A DNA stretch of 64,000 bases from positions 186,001 to 250,000 of the forward strand of contig NZ_FOTP01000005.1 of NCBI RefSeq assembly GCF_900114605.1. Reading direction: 5' to 3'. Below are positions 55,577-64,000 of the stretch, in pieces. Under the pieces are notes generated by a model. The model was not told the DNA's origin, did no database searches, and saw only the letters and a program-made list of their open reading frames with translations. A program made the position numbers and the translations under genes. The first letter of the stretch is position 1. The number at the start of each line of letters is the position of its first letter. Source of the stretch: Bradyrhizobium sp. NFR13. GTDB taxonomy: Bacteria; Pseudomonadota; Alphaproteobacteria; Rhizobiales; Xanthobacteraceae.

Positions 55577-55906
55577 GGAAATCTCCCCAAAATACCGGCC
55601 CCCAATGGCCGCAAGGGAAACTGCGCAGGTGTTCACACCGGGGCAGAAAAAGGGAATCTTCGGGCGAGTCCGGCAAAAACGGGGCATGAGCACAGCCGCA
55701 GTTATCGTCTCCACAGGCATCAGCAAAAATCTGCCTTTGAAATCAAGGCGACGGATGTCACTCTGACGGTTCGATGGTATGAGCCGGCTGTCTTTGAAAT
55801 CTTCGGCTCGGGGTTGGGGCGCAGGCAAGGTTTCACGGTTCCGTGATTTTTCTCTCGGCTGGCGTAACAAACTGAATTATCCGCCGAATTGGCTTTAGGA
55901 GCGCGT
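55577..55906. promoter_or_regulatory. Divergent regulatory region with a SigF-like promoter
   Basis: GTAAC (55864-55868), 16 bp, CGAA (55885-55888) resembles the GTAACC/CGAA promoters of the Caulobacter SigF-NrsF system. It lies 19 bp before the sigma factor's GTG start, as expected for self-activation. The rest of the 330 bp, including the promoter of the divergent low-complexity gene, shows no other clear element. Confidence 0.5.
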
Positions 55907-56452
55907 GTGCGCGGACGTGACGACGAATGGACCGATCTGATGCGGTCGGCCAATGCAGGGGATAGCGTTGCTTATCATCGCCTGTTGAAGTCGGTTACGC
56001 CCGTGCTGCGTGCCGGAGCGCGGCAGGGCCTGTCACGGGCTGGCCAGCCGCCCGATCAGGCGGAGGACATTGTGCAGGACATTTTGCTGGCGGTGCATTT
56101 GAAGCGGCACACCTGGGACGCGAACGCGCCGTTCGCGCCGTGGCTGTTTGCGATCGCCCGCAACAAACTGATTGATGCGCTGCGCCGCCGCGGACGTCGC
56201 GTCTTCGTCAATATCGACGATTTTGCGGAAACGATTCCGAGCGAGCCACCGGCTGAAACATTGCCCACCGTCGAGATATCCAATCATCTCTCTGACCTTC
56301 CGCCGCGGCAGCGCGACGTGTTGCGATCGATCGCGGTGGACAGCGCATCCATCAAGACCACGGCGTCGAAATTGTCGATGACCGAAGGTGCCGTGCGTGT
56401 GGCGTTGCATCGTGGGCTCGCGAGCCTCGCAGCCAAGCTGCGAAAGGATTGA
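55907..56452 (+). CDS. ECF sigma factor, SigF/NrsF type
   Basis: A 181-residue sigma-70 family factor of the extracytoplasmic-function class. Region 2 spans about residues 10-90 (DQAEDIVQDILLAVHLKRHTW, FAPWLFAIARNKLIDALRRR) and region 4 about 115-175 (LSDLPPRQRDVLRSIAVD, MTEGAVRVALHRGLASLA). The start GTG at 55907 has AGGAG five bases upstream; the frame is open back to a TTG at 55889. The gene for an NrsF-type anti-sigma factor starts 2 bp after its stop, and a SigF-like promoter lies upstream, so it probably answers oxidative or metal stress as in Caulobacter. Confidence 0.87.
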   Translation: MRGRDDEWTDLMRSANAGDSVAYHRLLKSVTPVLRAGARQGLSRAGQPPDQAEDIVQDILLAVHLKRHTWDANAPFAPWLFAIARNKLIDALRRRGRRVFVNIDDFAETIPSEPPAETLPTVEISNHLSDLPPRQRDVLRSIAVDSASIKTTASKLSMTEGAVRVALHRGLASLAAKLRKD

Positions 56453-56454
56453 CC

Positions 56455-57093
56455 ATGGATACCGATCGCCTGATTCAGGCCCTGGCCGCCGACAACGATC
56501 AAAGGGCACGTCCCGTCAGCACACAGCTCGCGATGGCCTTGTTGGTCACGCTGCCGGTCGTAGCGGCGATGTTGCTGGTGACGCTTGGCATTCGCCCGGA
56601 CTTCATGTCGGCGATGCGCAATCCGTTCTTCGATGCGAAGTTTCTGGTGACCCTGGCGCTCGCTATTCCCGCGATTGTGATCAGCGTTCATCTCTCGAAG
56701 CCCGAAGCGTCGTTGGGGGGCTGGATCTGGCTGTTGCTGCTGTCGCCGTTCATTCTCATCGTCGCGTTGATCGTCGAGATGACGATGCCGCAGCGTGCGC
56801 CGATGATGGTACGCATTATCGGCAGAAACTCGTCGCTGTGTTCGGCGGCGATCACGTTGCTGTCGCTGCCGATCCTCGGCGGCGCGATGATCGCGCTGCG
56901 CCACGGCGCGCCGTCACGCCCCGCTATTGCCGGTGCGCTCGCGGGATTGATGTCAGCCGGGCTGGGGGCGACGTTTTACGCCGCGCATTGTGCGGACGAC
57001 TCGCCGCTGTTTGTGGCGACGTGGTACACGCTCGCAGCCCTCGTGATGGCGGCGTTGGGTGCAGCCATCGGTTCGAAAGTGCTGCGCTATTGA
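56455..57093 (+). CDS. nrsF: NrsF-type anti-sigma factor (DUF1109)
   Basis: A 212-residue inner-membrane protein with six hydrophobic helices (about 25-45, 61-79, 91-110, 127-147, 158-178, 186-206) and a short cytoplasmic N-terminus. This is the DUF1109/NrsF plan. It should hold the adjacent sigma factor at the membrane. The only cysteines, C129 and C179, are 50 residues apart, matching the two conserved cysteines (about 131 and 181) that I recall as needed for stress sensing in the Caulobacter protein. The start follows AAAGGA and sits 2 bp after the sigma gene stop. Confidence 0.87.
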   Translation: MDTDRLIQALAADNDQRARPVSTQLAMALLVTLPVVAAMLLVTLGIRPDFMSAMRNPFFDAKFLVTLALAIPAIVISVHLSKPEASLGGWIWLLLLSPFILIVALIVEMTMPQRAPMMVRIIGRNSSLCSAAITLLSLPILGGAMIALRHGAPSRPAIAGALAGLMSAGLGATFYAAHCADDSPLFVATWYTLAALVMAALGAAIGSKVLRY

Positions 57094-60893: not shown

Positions 60894-61435
60894 CGATGGG
60901 TTTCGATGACGGAACTCTAGTGCTCAAAGCCTTTAGGTTTGGTATCTATTGCCGTGAGCCAATCTGGTAATCGGCTACTCATTCGCTGTTCTCGGCGATA
61001 CAATGTTGACAGATCGAATTCTGCGAACCGTCAGAGGATAGCAAACATAGCTTTGTTATTTAAGTAAAAATGACCCGGGCCAATGATGGGCCCGGACGAG
61101 TTGACCTGACGTGGCGGACAGGCCGCCAGGACAAGTGACGGTATCCATTTACGAGGGGGGCGGGATACAGCTGCAAAATGCAGGTTCCGCCGTCTCAAGG
61201 CTGTTCCGGAAGCCACGACTTGGTAAGGTTGCCGTGTGAATCGCTGGCATTCGGGTCGGAAATGCCCCAGCATTATGCTACCTGTTACCCGTTCCGCCCA
61301 AGAAAAGGGCGGTAAAAGCCCGTTCGGAGCGGTTAAAACAGCCGCGACCGGTATATTCCTGCCCATTCGAGAAGATTTTATCTTGTCAATCGAACCTCTT
61401 ACATCCTCATTCAGACCAACCTTGCGAGACGGGCA
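60894..61435. other. Intergenic region before the sigma/anti-sigma/protease cluster
   Basis: 542 bp without a convincing gene. Two hairpins are present: CCGGGCC (61075-61081) with GGCCCGG (61089-61095), and TGGCGG (61112-61117) with CCGCCA (61123-61128). The second half, directly before the sigma factor, should hold its promoter, but no clear -35/-10 pair is evident. A 280-codon frame on the minus strand (61031-61873) is the shadow of the sigma gene. Confidence 0.5.
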
Positions 61436-62005
61436 GTGAGTGCAACACAGGCGGCATCGGATGACATTCTGATCGCCCGGATTGCGCAAGGCGACCGTCT
61501 TGCCATGCAGGTGCTTTATGGCAGGCACCATGTCCGGGTGTTTCGCTTCGGCCTTCGGCTGGTGCGGAACGAACAGATTGCTGAGGATCTTATCAGCGAA
61601 GTGTTCCTGGATGTGTGGCGGCAGGCAGGCAAATTCGAGGGTCGCTCCGCGGTATCGACATGGCTGCTGGCGATTACGAGGTTCAAGGCGCTGTCCGCGC
61701 TGCGCAAACGCAAGGACGCCGAACTGGACGACGAGACGGCCAACGCGATCGAGGATACGTCCGATAATCCCGAAGTGTCGGTTCAGAAAAAGGATACCAG
61801 TGACGCGTTGCGGAAGTGCCTGACATCTCTTTCGCCCGAGCATCGGGAAATCGTCGATCTCGTCTACTACCACGAGAAGTCCGTGGAAGAGGTGGCCGAG
61901 ATCGTTGGAATTCCCGAGAACACCGTTAAGACGCGCTTGTTTTATGCGCGCAAGAAATTAGCCGATCTGCTCAAGGCAGCCGGCATTGAACGAGGCTGGC
62001 CATGA
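61436..62005 (+). CDS. ECF sigma factor
   Basis: A 189-residue extracytoplasmic-function sigma factor. Region 2 spans about 20-90 (ISEVFLDVWRQAGKFEGRS, STWLLAITRFKALSALRKRK). Region 4 spans about 130-180 (LSPEHREIVDLVYYHEKSV, VAEIVGIPENTVKTRLFYARK). The GTG at 61436 has GAGACGGG upstream. The stop overlaps the start of the anti-sigma gene (ATGA, 62002-62005), so the two are translationally coupled. The stimulus and target genes are unknown; a subtilisin-like protease gene lies just downstream. Confidence 0.92.
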   Translation: MSATQAASDDILIARIAQGDRLAMQVLYGRHHVRVFRFGLRLVRNEQIAEDLISEVFLDVWRQAGKFEGRSAVSTWLLAITRFKALSALRKRKDAELDDETANAIEDTSDNPEVSVQKKDTSDALRKCLTSLSPEHREIVDLVYYHEKSVEEVAEIVGIPENTVKTRLFYARKKLADLLKAAGIERGWP

Positions 62006-62742
62006 TGGCGATGAGCAAGAAGGTGCCGAACCAGGAGCCAGGCGAGATCGAGGCATTGCTGCCTTGGCACGCCGCGGGCACGCTCAACGCGCGTGATGCT
62101 CGCCGCGTCGATGATGCGCTCGCCAGTGATCCTGAATTGGCGAGGCAATATGCCGTGATCCAGGAAGAATACGCGGAGACCATTGGCCTCAATGAGAGCC
62201 TCGGTGCGCCGTCCTCACGGGCAATGCAGAAGCTGTTTGCTGCGATCGACGCCGAGCCGGCGCGCAGCGGATCGACATCGGTGGATCTGTCGGCGCGGAT
62301 CTCCGGATTTTTCGCATCGCTGTCGCCGCGGACGCTCGCGGCTTCGGCCGCTGTTGGCGCGCTCGCGATCATGCTGCAGGCCAGTGTGATCGGCACCGTG
62401 CTGATGCAGCGCGATACCCGCACATTCCAGACCGCGTCCTATGAAGCCGCGCCGTCGCCAGCAAGTGCACCGACCACTGTCACCCGGTCGCTCGCGCCGG
62501 CACCGGCACCTGCCTCGGTAGAAGCCCCGACGCGACTGTTCGTCCGTTTCGCGCCGACTGCGCGGGTGTCGGACATCACGGCGCTGCTTGACGGCTATCA
62601 GGGCACGATTGTCGACAGCGGCAAGGACGGGCTGTTCCGGCTGCAATTCGGCAATCGGGTGATGACCAAGGACCAGATCGCCGGGCTGATCCGCCGGCTG
62701 GAGAACGAGAAGATCGTCAGCATGGCGGTTCAGGCGCAGTAG
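62002..62742 (+). CDS. Membrane anti-sigma factor with a propeptide-like periplasmic domain
   Basis: A 246-residue single-pass protein. Residues about 14-75 form the cytoplasmic anti-sigma domain (LLPWHAAGTLNARDARRVDD); it lacks the HxxxCxxC zinc motif, so it is of the zinc-less kind. A helix at about 111-135 crosses the membrane, followed by an Ala/Pro-rich linker (145-175). The periplasmic end, 178-246, has the order strand (RLFVRFA), helix (VSDITALLDGYQ), strand (GLFRLQFG), helix (TKDQIAGLIRRLEN), strand (VSMAV). This resembles the inhibitory prodomain of subtilases (I9-like). The ATG overlaps the sigma stop. Confidence 0.82.
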   Translation: MMAMSKKVPNQEPGEIEALLPWHAAGTLNARDARRVDDALASDPELARQYAVIQEEYAETIGLNESLGAPSSRAMQKLFAAIDAEPARSGSTSVDLSARISGFFASLSPRTLAASAAVGALAIMLQASVIGTVLMQRDTRTFQTASYEAAPSPASAPTTVTRSLAPAPAPASVEAPTRLFVRFAPTARVSDITALLDGYQGTIVDSGKDGLFRLQFGNRVMTKDQIAGLIRRLENEKIVSMAVQAQ

Positions 62743-62789
62743 GCGCCGTCGGTTGATCCGATCCGCATTGTGCGTGCGAGGCCTGTTCC

Positions 62790-64000
62790 ATGAGACATGA
62801 TCGTGGTGCCTCCGGACCAATGATGAAATGCACGGCCGCTGTGCTTTCGCTTGCCGTTGCATGGTCGTTCGGCCTTTCGGTCGCCGGCGCGCAGAGCATG
62901 ATGCGCTCGCCAAGCCTCAATATCGGATCGCGCGTTCCCACGATCGCTCCGAGCACAACGCCGCGTATCAATCCGAATATCGCTACGGGGGCGGGCCGCA
63001 TCGCCGGCCGTGGCCCGAATATCGCGAGCCGCGGACCCATTGCTGGTCGCGTCGGTATCACCAGCACCGGTCCGCGCGGGGCGGCGATCGGGACGACAGC
63101 CAGCCGGACACCGCCCATATCCTCGCGGCCAGGACGTACGCCGCCGCCGAAGATCGTGGGCGTGCTGCCAACCATTCCCTATGTGCGCTATTCGCCGAAC
63201 ACCTATCCGAGTTGCGCCTATGCCAATCGTGCGGCATCCGGCGAGTGCAACGAGAAGCCATTCGTTGCTGATCTCGGCGGCGGTGGTCCGACGCCGCGCA
63301 GTCAGAACGCCGGTGGTGGACCGCGCAGCAATGGTCCGCAAGCGGGCTTGAATACGCGTTACGTCCCCCGCCAGATCATCGCCGAACTCGATGGCGCGCT
63401 GACGCCCGATCAGACAGATGCGCTGGCGCGCCGTCTGCGTCTGGAGCGTCTGTCGTCGCAGGATTTTCCGTTGATCGGCGCGACGATCAACCTTTTCCGG
63501 ATCACCGATAATCGTTCGGTCGAAACTGTTGAGGCCCAGATGCGCGCCGAGGCTGACGTGCGCGCTGTGCAACCCAATTTCCGCTATGTGCTGCAGGACC
63601 AGGTGACAGTGCCAGCGCCGGGTGAGGGCGATCCCGCGCAATATGCGGTGGCGAAGCTTCGTCTGCCCGAGGCGCACAAGCTGTCCGCCGGTGCCAATGT
63701 CACAATCGCTGTGATCGATTCCGGCATCGACGTTGCGCATCCCGAACTCGCTGATGCCATCGTGGGATCATTCGATGCGCTTGGCAGTAAGGAAGGTGCG
63801 CATGTGCATGGCACTGGCATTGCGGGGGCGATCGTATCGCATGCGCGGCTGATGGGCAGCGCGCCGCGCGCGCGCATCTTGGCCATTCGCGCTTTTGGTG
63901 TGTCGCAGGGCGGTGCCGAGAGTTCGTCTTTCATCATCCTTAAGGGCATCAACCACGCGGCATTGAATGGCGCCCAGGTCATCAATATGAGCTTCGCCGG
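62790..64000 (+). CDS. Secreted S8 (subtilisin-like) serine protease, 3' partial
   Basis: The first 403 residues are inside the window. A signal peptide (up to about residue 35, VAGAQS) is followed by a Pro/Gly/Arg-rich segment (about 40-185), then a prodomain (about 190-270: YVPRQIIAELDG, INLFRIT, VEAQMRAEADVRAVQPNF). In the catalytic domain Asp310 (AVIDSGID) and His340 (HVHGTGIAG) are visible; the Ser lies beyond the edge. ATG 62790 has GAGG nine bases upstream and is preferred to ATG 62820 or 62823. It lies 47 bp after the anti-sigma gene, probably in the same operon. Confidence 0.85.
   Translation, partial: MRHDRGASGPMMKCTAAVLSLAVAWSFGLSVAGAQSMMRSPSLNIGSRVPTIAPSTTPRINPNIATGAGRIAGRGPNIASRGPIAGRVGITSTGPRGAAIGTTASRTPPISSRPGRTPPPKIVGVLPTIPYVRYSPNTYPSCAYANRAASGECNEKPFVADLGGGGPTPRSQNAGGGPRSNGPQAGLNTRYVPRQIIAELDGALTPDQTDALARRLRLERLSSQDFPLIGATINLFRITDNRSVETVEAQMRAEADVRAVQPNFRYVLQDQVTVPAPGEGDPAQYAVAKLRLPEAHKLSAGANVTIAVIDSGIDVAHPELADAIVGSFDALGSKEGAHVHGTGIAGAIVSHARLMGSAPRARILAIRAFGVSQGGAESSSFIILKGINHAALNGAQVINMSFA

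Follow-up and report, generated by a model that had tools for sequence, protein, structure and literature searches.

We investigated the end of a 64,000-nucleotide stretch of Bradyrhizobium sp. NFR13 (contig NZ_FOTP01000005.1, positions 186,001 to 250,000; this whole stretch is called the window), where a gene for an extracytoplasmic function (ECF) sigma factor (61436..62005, + strand) is followed by genes for a membrane anti-sigma factor (62002..62742, +) and an S8 family serine protease, or subtilase (62790..64000, +). The periplasmic C-terminal domain of the anti-sigma factor (CTD; residues 178–246, 62533..62739, +) belongs with the prodomains of subtilases. Across many families of the phylum, the gene for a CTD-bearing anti-sigma factor is adjoined by one for an S8 protease or, in some lineages, for a caspase-type protein, and a conserved linker motif on the membrane side of the domain goes with an S8 partner. 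On the basis of sequence comparison, we tentatively propose that the exported protease of the operon itself acts on its anti-sigma factor, a reading to which we give slightly less than an even chance. To our knowledge, the triggers of most ECF sigma factors are unknown; here one operon encodes candidates for the ligand, the cutter and the cut site, and the system occurs across many alphaproteobacterial families and in at least one further class of the phylum.

An earlier note on this DNA had pointed out, by eye, a likeness between the CTD and the prodomain of the neighbouring protease (residues ~190–272; 63357..63605, +), and profile comparison confirmed it at the family level, far above chance. 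The pair from the window, compared alone by BLASTP, showed no significant similarity (E 3.7), and the window's own CTD had no match to a Pfam prodomain family. Alignment of 82 CTDs with 75 prodomains by hhalign gave a probability of 87–90% over the whole domain at 8% identity, and the best of 100 column-shuffled controls reached 5.5%. With 90 diverse CTDs and 41 prodomains, the probabilities were 92.8% and 94.9% in the two directions; the same comparison with two other ferredoxin-like domains, unrelated and taken from relatives, gave 11.5% and 27.5% for SPOR (30 sequences) and 0.11–0.15% for ACT (20 sequences). A chance likeness was ruled out by the shuffled, SPOR and ACT controls. The Pfam family PF22148 (Fervidolysin_NPro-like) was matched by 24 of the 90 CTDs when these were searched alone (E up to 0.1, best 4e-6), by 25 of the 41 neighbouring prodomains, by 8 of 47 whole anti-sigma factors of the order, and by 5 of 20 whole anti-sigma factors drawn from several classes. 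SPOR was the second commonest Pfam family on the CTDs (6/90, best 9.3e-5). These Pfam counts, together with the SPOR and ACT comparisons, weaken the alternative that the two domains share a resemblance of fold only.

Searches over the surveyed loci agreed in part. A prodomain profile was run over 9573 locus frames, which contained 116 anti-sigma frames and 94 S8 frames, and anti-sigma CTDs took 12 of the 25 best places not labelled as S8 (best E 0.008). In the reverse search with a CTD profile, S8 frames took 9 of the 25 best places, yet at E 0.7 or worse, and a PDB sequence search with the CTD profile or the whole anti-sigma factor returned nothing of weight. The profile alignment kept the register of the blocks that had been matched by eye (LFRLQFG with LFRITDN, the second helix and the last strand).

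AlphaFold2 modelled the CTD as beta-alpha-beta-beta-alpha-beta, with strands at residues 178–183, 201–206, 211–216 and 239–244 and helices at 189–198 and 223–234 (mean predicted local distance difference test score, pLDDT, 88.5 for the best model and 51–88 across five, two of them poor). The order previously read from the letters, strand-helix-strand-helix-strand, had missed the second strand and otherwise stands. That the prodomain shares the order of elements was borne out by an AlphaFold model of the orthologous protease at locus L003, which had the same six elements at similar spacing, with a pLDDT of ~41–82 in the prodomain block and a mean of 40 for the protease as a whole, the model being poor outside the prodomain. 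With the CTD as query, Foldseek ranked the subtilisin BPN' prosegment (1spb_P) third, with template modelling (TM) scores of 0.59/0.60, and subtilisin or proprotein-convertase prodomains appeared at ranks 3, 10, 15 and others (query TM 0.58–0.70). Ribosomal protein S6 took rank 1, ACT and RRM folds scored too, and no match had E ≤ 0.001; because these folds are mixed with prodomains, the fold alone is not decisive and the sequence profiles decide. The unrelated fold that the earlier note had considered for residues 178–246 was not what the models gave, the fold being related to that of prodomains.

Relatives of the anti-sigma factor were found in 81 of 297 genomes of the order (70 of 85 match rows covered, the 15 left out being weak or fragmentary), 47 of 385 of the class (40 regions covered) and 83 of 398 of the phylum (20 regions, mostly from rows reaching the C-terminal part). 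In the class of G982, presumed to be Gammaproteobacteria, they occurred in 92 of 321 genomes, from which 20 CTD-reaching regions and 20 N-terminal-only controls were taken, and in its order in 69 of 399 genomes, from which 36 regions reaching far into the protein were taken (the CTD filter retained 32 of these 36 loci, and removal of near-duplicates left 29). The resulting 138 non-redundant CTD anti-sigma factors comprised 112 beside an S8 gene, 10 (from 8 loci) next to a gene for a C14 caspase-type protein and 16 beside neither, 6 of the latter lying at contig ends. All 112 S8-partnered cases had a catalytic-domain match within 3 kb, and 109 had a sigma factor within 2.5 kb. Conservation of an S8 gene next to the sigma/anti-sigma pair, the lack of which the earlier note had seen as telling against its proposal, was thus found for 112 of 138. 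The S8 gene mostly followed the anti-sigma gene, and preceded the sigma gene in L026, L040, L044, L057, L058 and L125.

Anti-sigma factors without a CTD match had an S8 gene in 5 of 47 loci (counted over loci up to L185), and three of these five (L133, L163 and L164) have CTD-like ends missed at the threshold. Among the 20 N-terminal-only controls, S8 was present only at L170 and L171, both of which have CTD-like ends. The caspase-partnered loci were L137, L139, L140, L142, L161, L252, L272 and L278, with two adjacent CTD proteins each in L139 and L140. The caspase label was assigned with our own profile built from five of the eight loci, with Pfam for L137, L140 and L142 (Peptidase_C14) and additionally by hand for L139 and L142, and the profile matched at all eight; the N-termini of the L137, L140 and L142 proteins look exported by eye. 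As a separate observation, the CTD anti-sigma genes of L151, L156 and L157, near which a protease gene was not found, are flanked, by eye, by dapB/dnaJ/dnaK-like genes on one side and carA-like genes on the other; of the three proteins, only that of L156 has the linker motif described next.

Just outside the membrane, the linker that leads to the CTD carries the motif [YF]xx[ALVFM][SGTA], most commonly as [YF]xTAS; the copy in the window is FQTAS (residues 142–146; 62425..62439, +), the proposed site-1 cleavage site. The motif was present in 65 of 90 diverse CTD anti-sigma factors (mean of 14.9 and maximum of 24 in 500 shuffles) and in 2 of 38 CTD-less controls. Sorted by partner, it occurred in 87 of 112 S8-partnered proteins (17.7 when shuffled), none of the 10 caspase-partnered ones and 5 of the 16 beside neither; three of these five lie at contig ends, where a partner could be unseen, and the others are the S8-less L006 and L156 (YSVVA). 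The strict motif had been fixed before an extra batch was fetched, in which it was found in 11 of 21 S8-partnered proteins (2.3 when shuffled) and 0 of 3 caspase-partnered ones; in the other ten S8 loci of that batch an aliphatic residue replaces the aromatic one. A broader motif, [YFLIVM]x[TPAVLS][ALVF][SGTA], covered 106 of the 112 S8-partnered proteins (36.0 when shuffled), but it was made post hoc and has no use as a test.

Subtilases favour aromatic or hydrophobic residues at P4. At the end of the S8 proteases' own prodomains, the putative P4 residue (the third after a conserved Asn, assigned from what we take to be the subtilisin register) was aromatic in 78 of 113 cases, a pattern-picked figure; the share was 55 of 65 in L002–L083 and about half elsewhere, and 30 S8 proteases could not be assigned. 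In the caspase-partnered linkers, Arg followed by Gly, Ser or Ala occurred in 9 of 10 proteins, against 26 of 112 S8-partnered ones, and in 2 of 3 caspase-partnered proteins of the extra batch (1.5 expected). Such an Arg-small pair would suit bacterial caspases, but it is only a hint because shuffling those same linkers gives 5.8 of the 10. In caspase-partnered loci the subtilase-type site is absent, and the cut site may have changed together with the protease.

The linker motif indirectly supports clipping by the partner protease. It also bears on a homeostatic alternative, in which protease bound to the CTD, or freed prodomain, shields the linker from another site-1 protease, so that once the protease has been consumed the linker would be open to cleavage and the sigma factor would drive synthesis of more protease, giving negative feedback. 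The relation of the domains, the gene neighbourhood and the promoter described below fit such a receptor too, a CTD without a tail could bind without inhibiting, and control of site-1 cleavage by a ligand is established in the case of RsiV, with lysozyme as ligand (PMC6066255). A generic site-1 protease would not predict a motif that tracks S8 partners and is absent with caspases, and we regard this alternative as rather unlikely.

We then compared the CTD with the contacts described for subtilase propeptides, which a published analysis gives as a hydrophobic hairpin residue, a pair of helix caps following the final strand and a C-terminal tail that lies in the active site (PMC6993865). The cap positions held an acid or amide in 26 and 25 of the 38 matchable prodomains, versus 15 of 89 and 20 of 86 CTDs. 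After the Val of the last strand, the chain runs on for fewer than 12 residues in 77 of 90 CTDs (median 7), and prodomains have at least 18 from that Val to the catalytic domain (29 measured). The hairpin between strands 2 and 3 was hydrophobic in 41 of 41 prodomains, and some hydrophobic residue was present in the turn of 35 of 82 matchable CTDs. The CTD turn carries Gly in 84 of 90 and Pro in 82 of 90, and the domain has a signature, [IV]xxGPxxxGxY, that is degenerate in the window's own genus. With the caps and tail mostly lost, the CTD is a prodomain relative for which the normal mode of binding and inhibition is unlikely.

These features leave less support for the tightly bound decoy prodomain that the earlier note had imagined, given the mostly missing helix caps and tail and a hairpin hydrophobic in only 35 of 82. 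In its full form, that idea makes the CTD a tethered inhibitor that blocks the protease tightly and holds it at the membrane. Fold and family agree with it, the hydrophobic residue in those 35 turns is a possible plug, and published work describes stand-alone propeptide-like inhibitors such as malaria SUB1-ProM and calls the tail non-essential for PfSUB1 (PMC6993865). Set against this are the scarcity of acid or amide at the CTD caps, the short tail and the Gly-Pro turn where all 41 prodomains examined have the hairpin hydrophobic, and we judge a tethered inhibitor improbable.

The reading we prefer, with the anti-sigma factor as a target of the exported protease of its operon, could work as follows. 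The mature protease would recognise the tail-less, prodomain-like CTD with its active site left unblocked, and would cut the linker at [YF]-x-[TP]-[AL]|[SG], with the aromatic residue at the fourth position ahead of the scissile bond, an arrangement that would match the end of the protease's own prodomain. Such a cut would be site-1 cleavage, after which a site-2 protease and cytoplasmic proteases would remove the stump. The freed sigma factor would then transcribe the sigma, anti-sigma and protease genes, and the threshold would be set by competition for the protease from free prodomain or from substrate. The sign of the feedback, activation over protection, is the less certain part of this proposal. 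As to origin, it is possible, though on the doubtful side, that an anti-sigma factor captured a prodomain, shed its inhibitory parts and kept a docking sensor, that the protease cuts the anti-sigma factor and so switches on its own gene, and that the protease module is exchangeable.

Several observations weigh against the proposal that the protease acts on its anti-sigma factor. The association of the linker motif with S8 (87 of 112 against 5 of 26 others) gave a Fisher p of 4e-8, which is too small because the loci are related by descent. Near ten CTD anti-sigma genes away from contig ends (L006, L095, L151, L156, L157, L165, L266, L269, L270 and L276), no S8 or caspase-type gene was found. 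At one of these, L006 from a Tardiphaga metagenome-assembled genome, the S8 gene is missing between the anti-sigma gene and the usual next gene and the genome has only weak partial S8 matches elsewhere, yet both CTD and linker motif are retained. The anti-sigma factors of L103 and L124 (S. meliloti pSymA) are linked to S8 but lack the CTD, that of L103 carrying a 17-kDa surface-antigen domain (PF16998) in its place. A sigma frame lay within 2.5 kb for only 6 of the 10 caspase-partnered proteins; moreover, caspase partners presumably carry no I9-type prodomain, so the CTD would not be purely a subtilase ligand. In distance trees, the partial correlation with the S8 catalytic domain was 0.28 for the CTD, 0.26 for the prodomain and 0.33 for the cytoplasmic anti-sigma domain (the script used the first listed domain of each match), so that the CTD is coupled about as strongly as the prodomain but not more strongly than the cytoplasmic domain, and the test does not discriminate. 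Finally, with caps and tail mostly gone, docking would need another surface, perhaps the conserved GPxxxGxY hairpin of the CTD.

Some of these points would suit a simpler arrangement, in which the S8 protease is only an output, a regulon member encoded beside its sigma factor; the CTD would sense something else, for example peptidoglycan, in the manner of SPOR, or misfolded protein, and its prodomain likeness would reflect distant common ancestry with no present function. The S8-linked but CTD-less anti-sigma factors at L103 and L124, the CTD anti-sigma factors without a protease neighbour, the mostly missing cap and tail features and the rank of SPOR as second Pfam family on CTDs all fit it. 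It accounts less well for PF22148 on 24 of 90 CTDs and a SPOR profile scoring far below the prodomain profile, for the co-occurrence of CTD and S8 when CTD-less anti-sigma factors from the same searches rarely have S8, and for a linker motif that tracks S8, and we consider it unlikely.

The region ahead of the sigma gene holds a conserved element of the ECF promoter type. In the window, the candidate promoter (61390..61419, +) reads TCGAACC-N17-GACCAA and ends 16 nt before the sigma start codon, and both boxes were invariant in 14 of 14 Tardiphaga and Bradyrhizobium upstream regions. The more general form, AACC-N16-CGAC, was counted in 40 of 89 sigma upstream regions after removal of duplicates (any dyad reached at most 8 in five shuffles), and profile alignment places it roughly 20–65 bases ahead of the sigma start; the window copy has AGAC in place of CGAC. 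Across the strain's own genome the pattern was not enriched, with 59 places versus 62 for a reversed control. The element ahead of the sigma gene is consistent with an operon that regulates itself, its protease gene included. Further upstream, at about 61270–61282 and ~150 bases before the sigma start, the partly palindromic sequence GTATTATGNTACC is conserved in Tardiphaga and Bradyrhizobium and may be an operator or a second promoter.

The fold of Bacillus RsiV is not known to be related to that of the CTD, and DegS of E. coli is a PDZ protease that is not encoded with its sigma factor and is not known to be recognised through a prodomain-like domain. Like the system proposed here, RsiV binds an enzyme through its extracellular part and is then cut at a juxtamembrane site 1 (PMC6066255); unlike it, the lysozyme bound is the signal and not the cutter, cleavage being by signal peptidase. 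The DegS-RseA-RseP cascade shares with our proposal the cutting of a membrane anti-sigma factor by a periplasmic serine protease (PMC8103513) and then by a site-2 protease. PF22148/I9 propeptides resemble the CTD in fold and profile, but the CTD sits on an anti-sigma factor and not before a catalytic domain, has mostly lost the caps and tail, and carries the GPxxxGxY hairpin. SUB1-ProM is likewise a prodomain-like protein separate from the protease and encoded beside subtilase genes, but it is a potent inhibitor that keeps the contact residues, and the portions of its description available report no link to gene regulation (PMC6993865).

The closest arrangement in print is RpoE6-EcfR6-SMa0142 of S. 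meliloti (ECF26), in which an ECF sigma factor and a membrane anti-sigma factor adjoin a controlled serine protease gene as they do here, and overexpression of RpoE6 raises expression of the anti-sigma gene and of the adjacent SMa0142 (PMC6180224). We found that the pSymA frame in this arrangement is an S8 protease (E 6e-70; the record is without gene annotation). The RpoE6 system differs in that the protease gene is divergent, the anti-sigma frame at the EcfR6 position has no CTD match, and the promoter consensus, GGAATA...GT, is unlike AACC-N16-CGAC; its authors term the mode of activation hypothetical (PMC6180224). Elsewhere, ECF54 has been reported in the vicinity of subtilase and CHAT genes, and proteolysis was proposed for that sigma factor (PMC8999054). 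The statement in the earlier note that it knew of no described system with this logic hence needs qualifying, as the linkage of a sigma factor with a serine protease gene is published for RpoE6 (PMC6180224). Among the matches listed for open-licence PMC articles (titles, starts of abstracts and term counts), no anti-sigma factor with a subtilase prodomain-like domain was found. An anti-sigma sensor of the subtilase prodomain family, with a partner-linked site in its linker, thus appears to be new as far as those matches go. If the proposal is true, a zymogen inhibitor domain has been reused as a signal receptor, which would explain a large set of unassigned anti-sigma C-termini as well as the subtilases and caspase-type proteins encoded beside ECF genes.

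The remaining features of the locus are in keeping with a sigma/anti-sigma pair and an exported protease. The sigma factor has 189 residues and matched NF009168/PRK12515 (352.9 bits), Sigma70_r2 and r4_2. The anti-sigma factor has 246 residues, and its start overlaps the sigma stop by 4 bases. It has an N-terminal anti-sigma domain, one predicted transmembrane helix (residues ~113–135, 62338..62406, +; a scripted hydropathy maximum) and a periplasmic domain, with the cognate sigma gene adjoining. Its match to NF052375 (anti-sigma factor; E 1.4e-6) lies under the family cut-off and that to zf-HC2 is weak (0.039); zf-HC2 was matched in 28 of 47 anti-sigma relatives (E up to 1). Relatives of the window anti-sigma factor are present in 12 named Tardiphaga or Bradyrhizobium loci, 10 of which were aligned, and the nearest named loci are from Tardiphaga (95–96% identity).

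The protease gene starts 47 bases after the anti-sigma gene and continues 577 bases beyond the window end; in full (L002:4790-6577) it encodes 595 residues. The layout comprises a probable signal peptide (62820..62894, +; M-M-K ... V-A-G-A-Q, by eye from the translation), a long Pro/Ala/Gly-rich stretch, the prodomain and the catalytic domain. The prodomain matched PF22148 with 18.2 bits and, as an isolated fragment, with 21.8 bits, above the 21-bit cut-off. The match to Peptidase_S8 was 5e-13 for the part in the window and 157 bits in the strain's own genome, and a scripted reading found the catalytic Asp, His and Ser motifs. Another strong Peptidase_S8 match in the same genome (G000:C7:450806-451789) lies in a 1222-residue frame, perhaps an autotransporter, as guessed from its length. 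Elsewhere in the window, at 55889–57093 (+), a second ECF sigma gene is directly followed by a gene for an NrsF-type anti-sigma factor (PF06532, 197 bits), a pair unrelated to the system described here.

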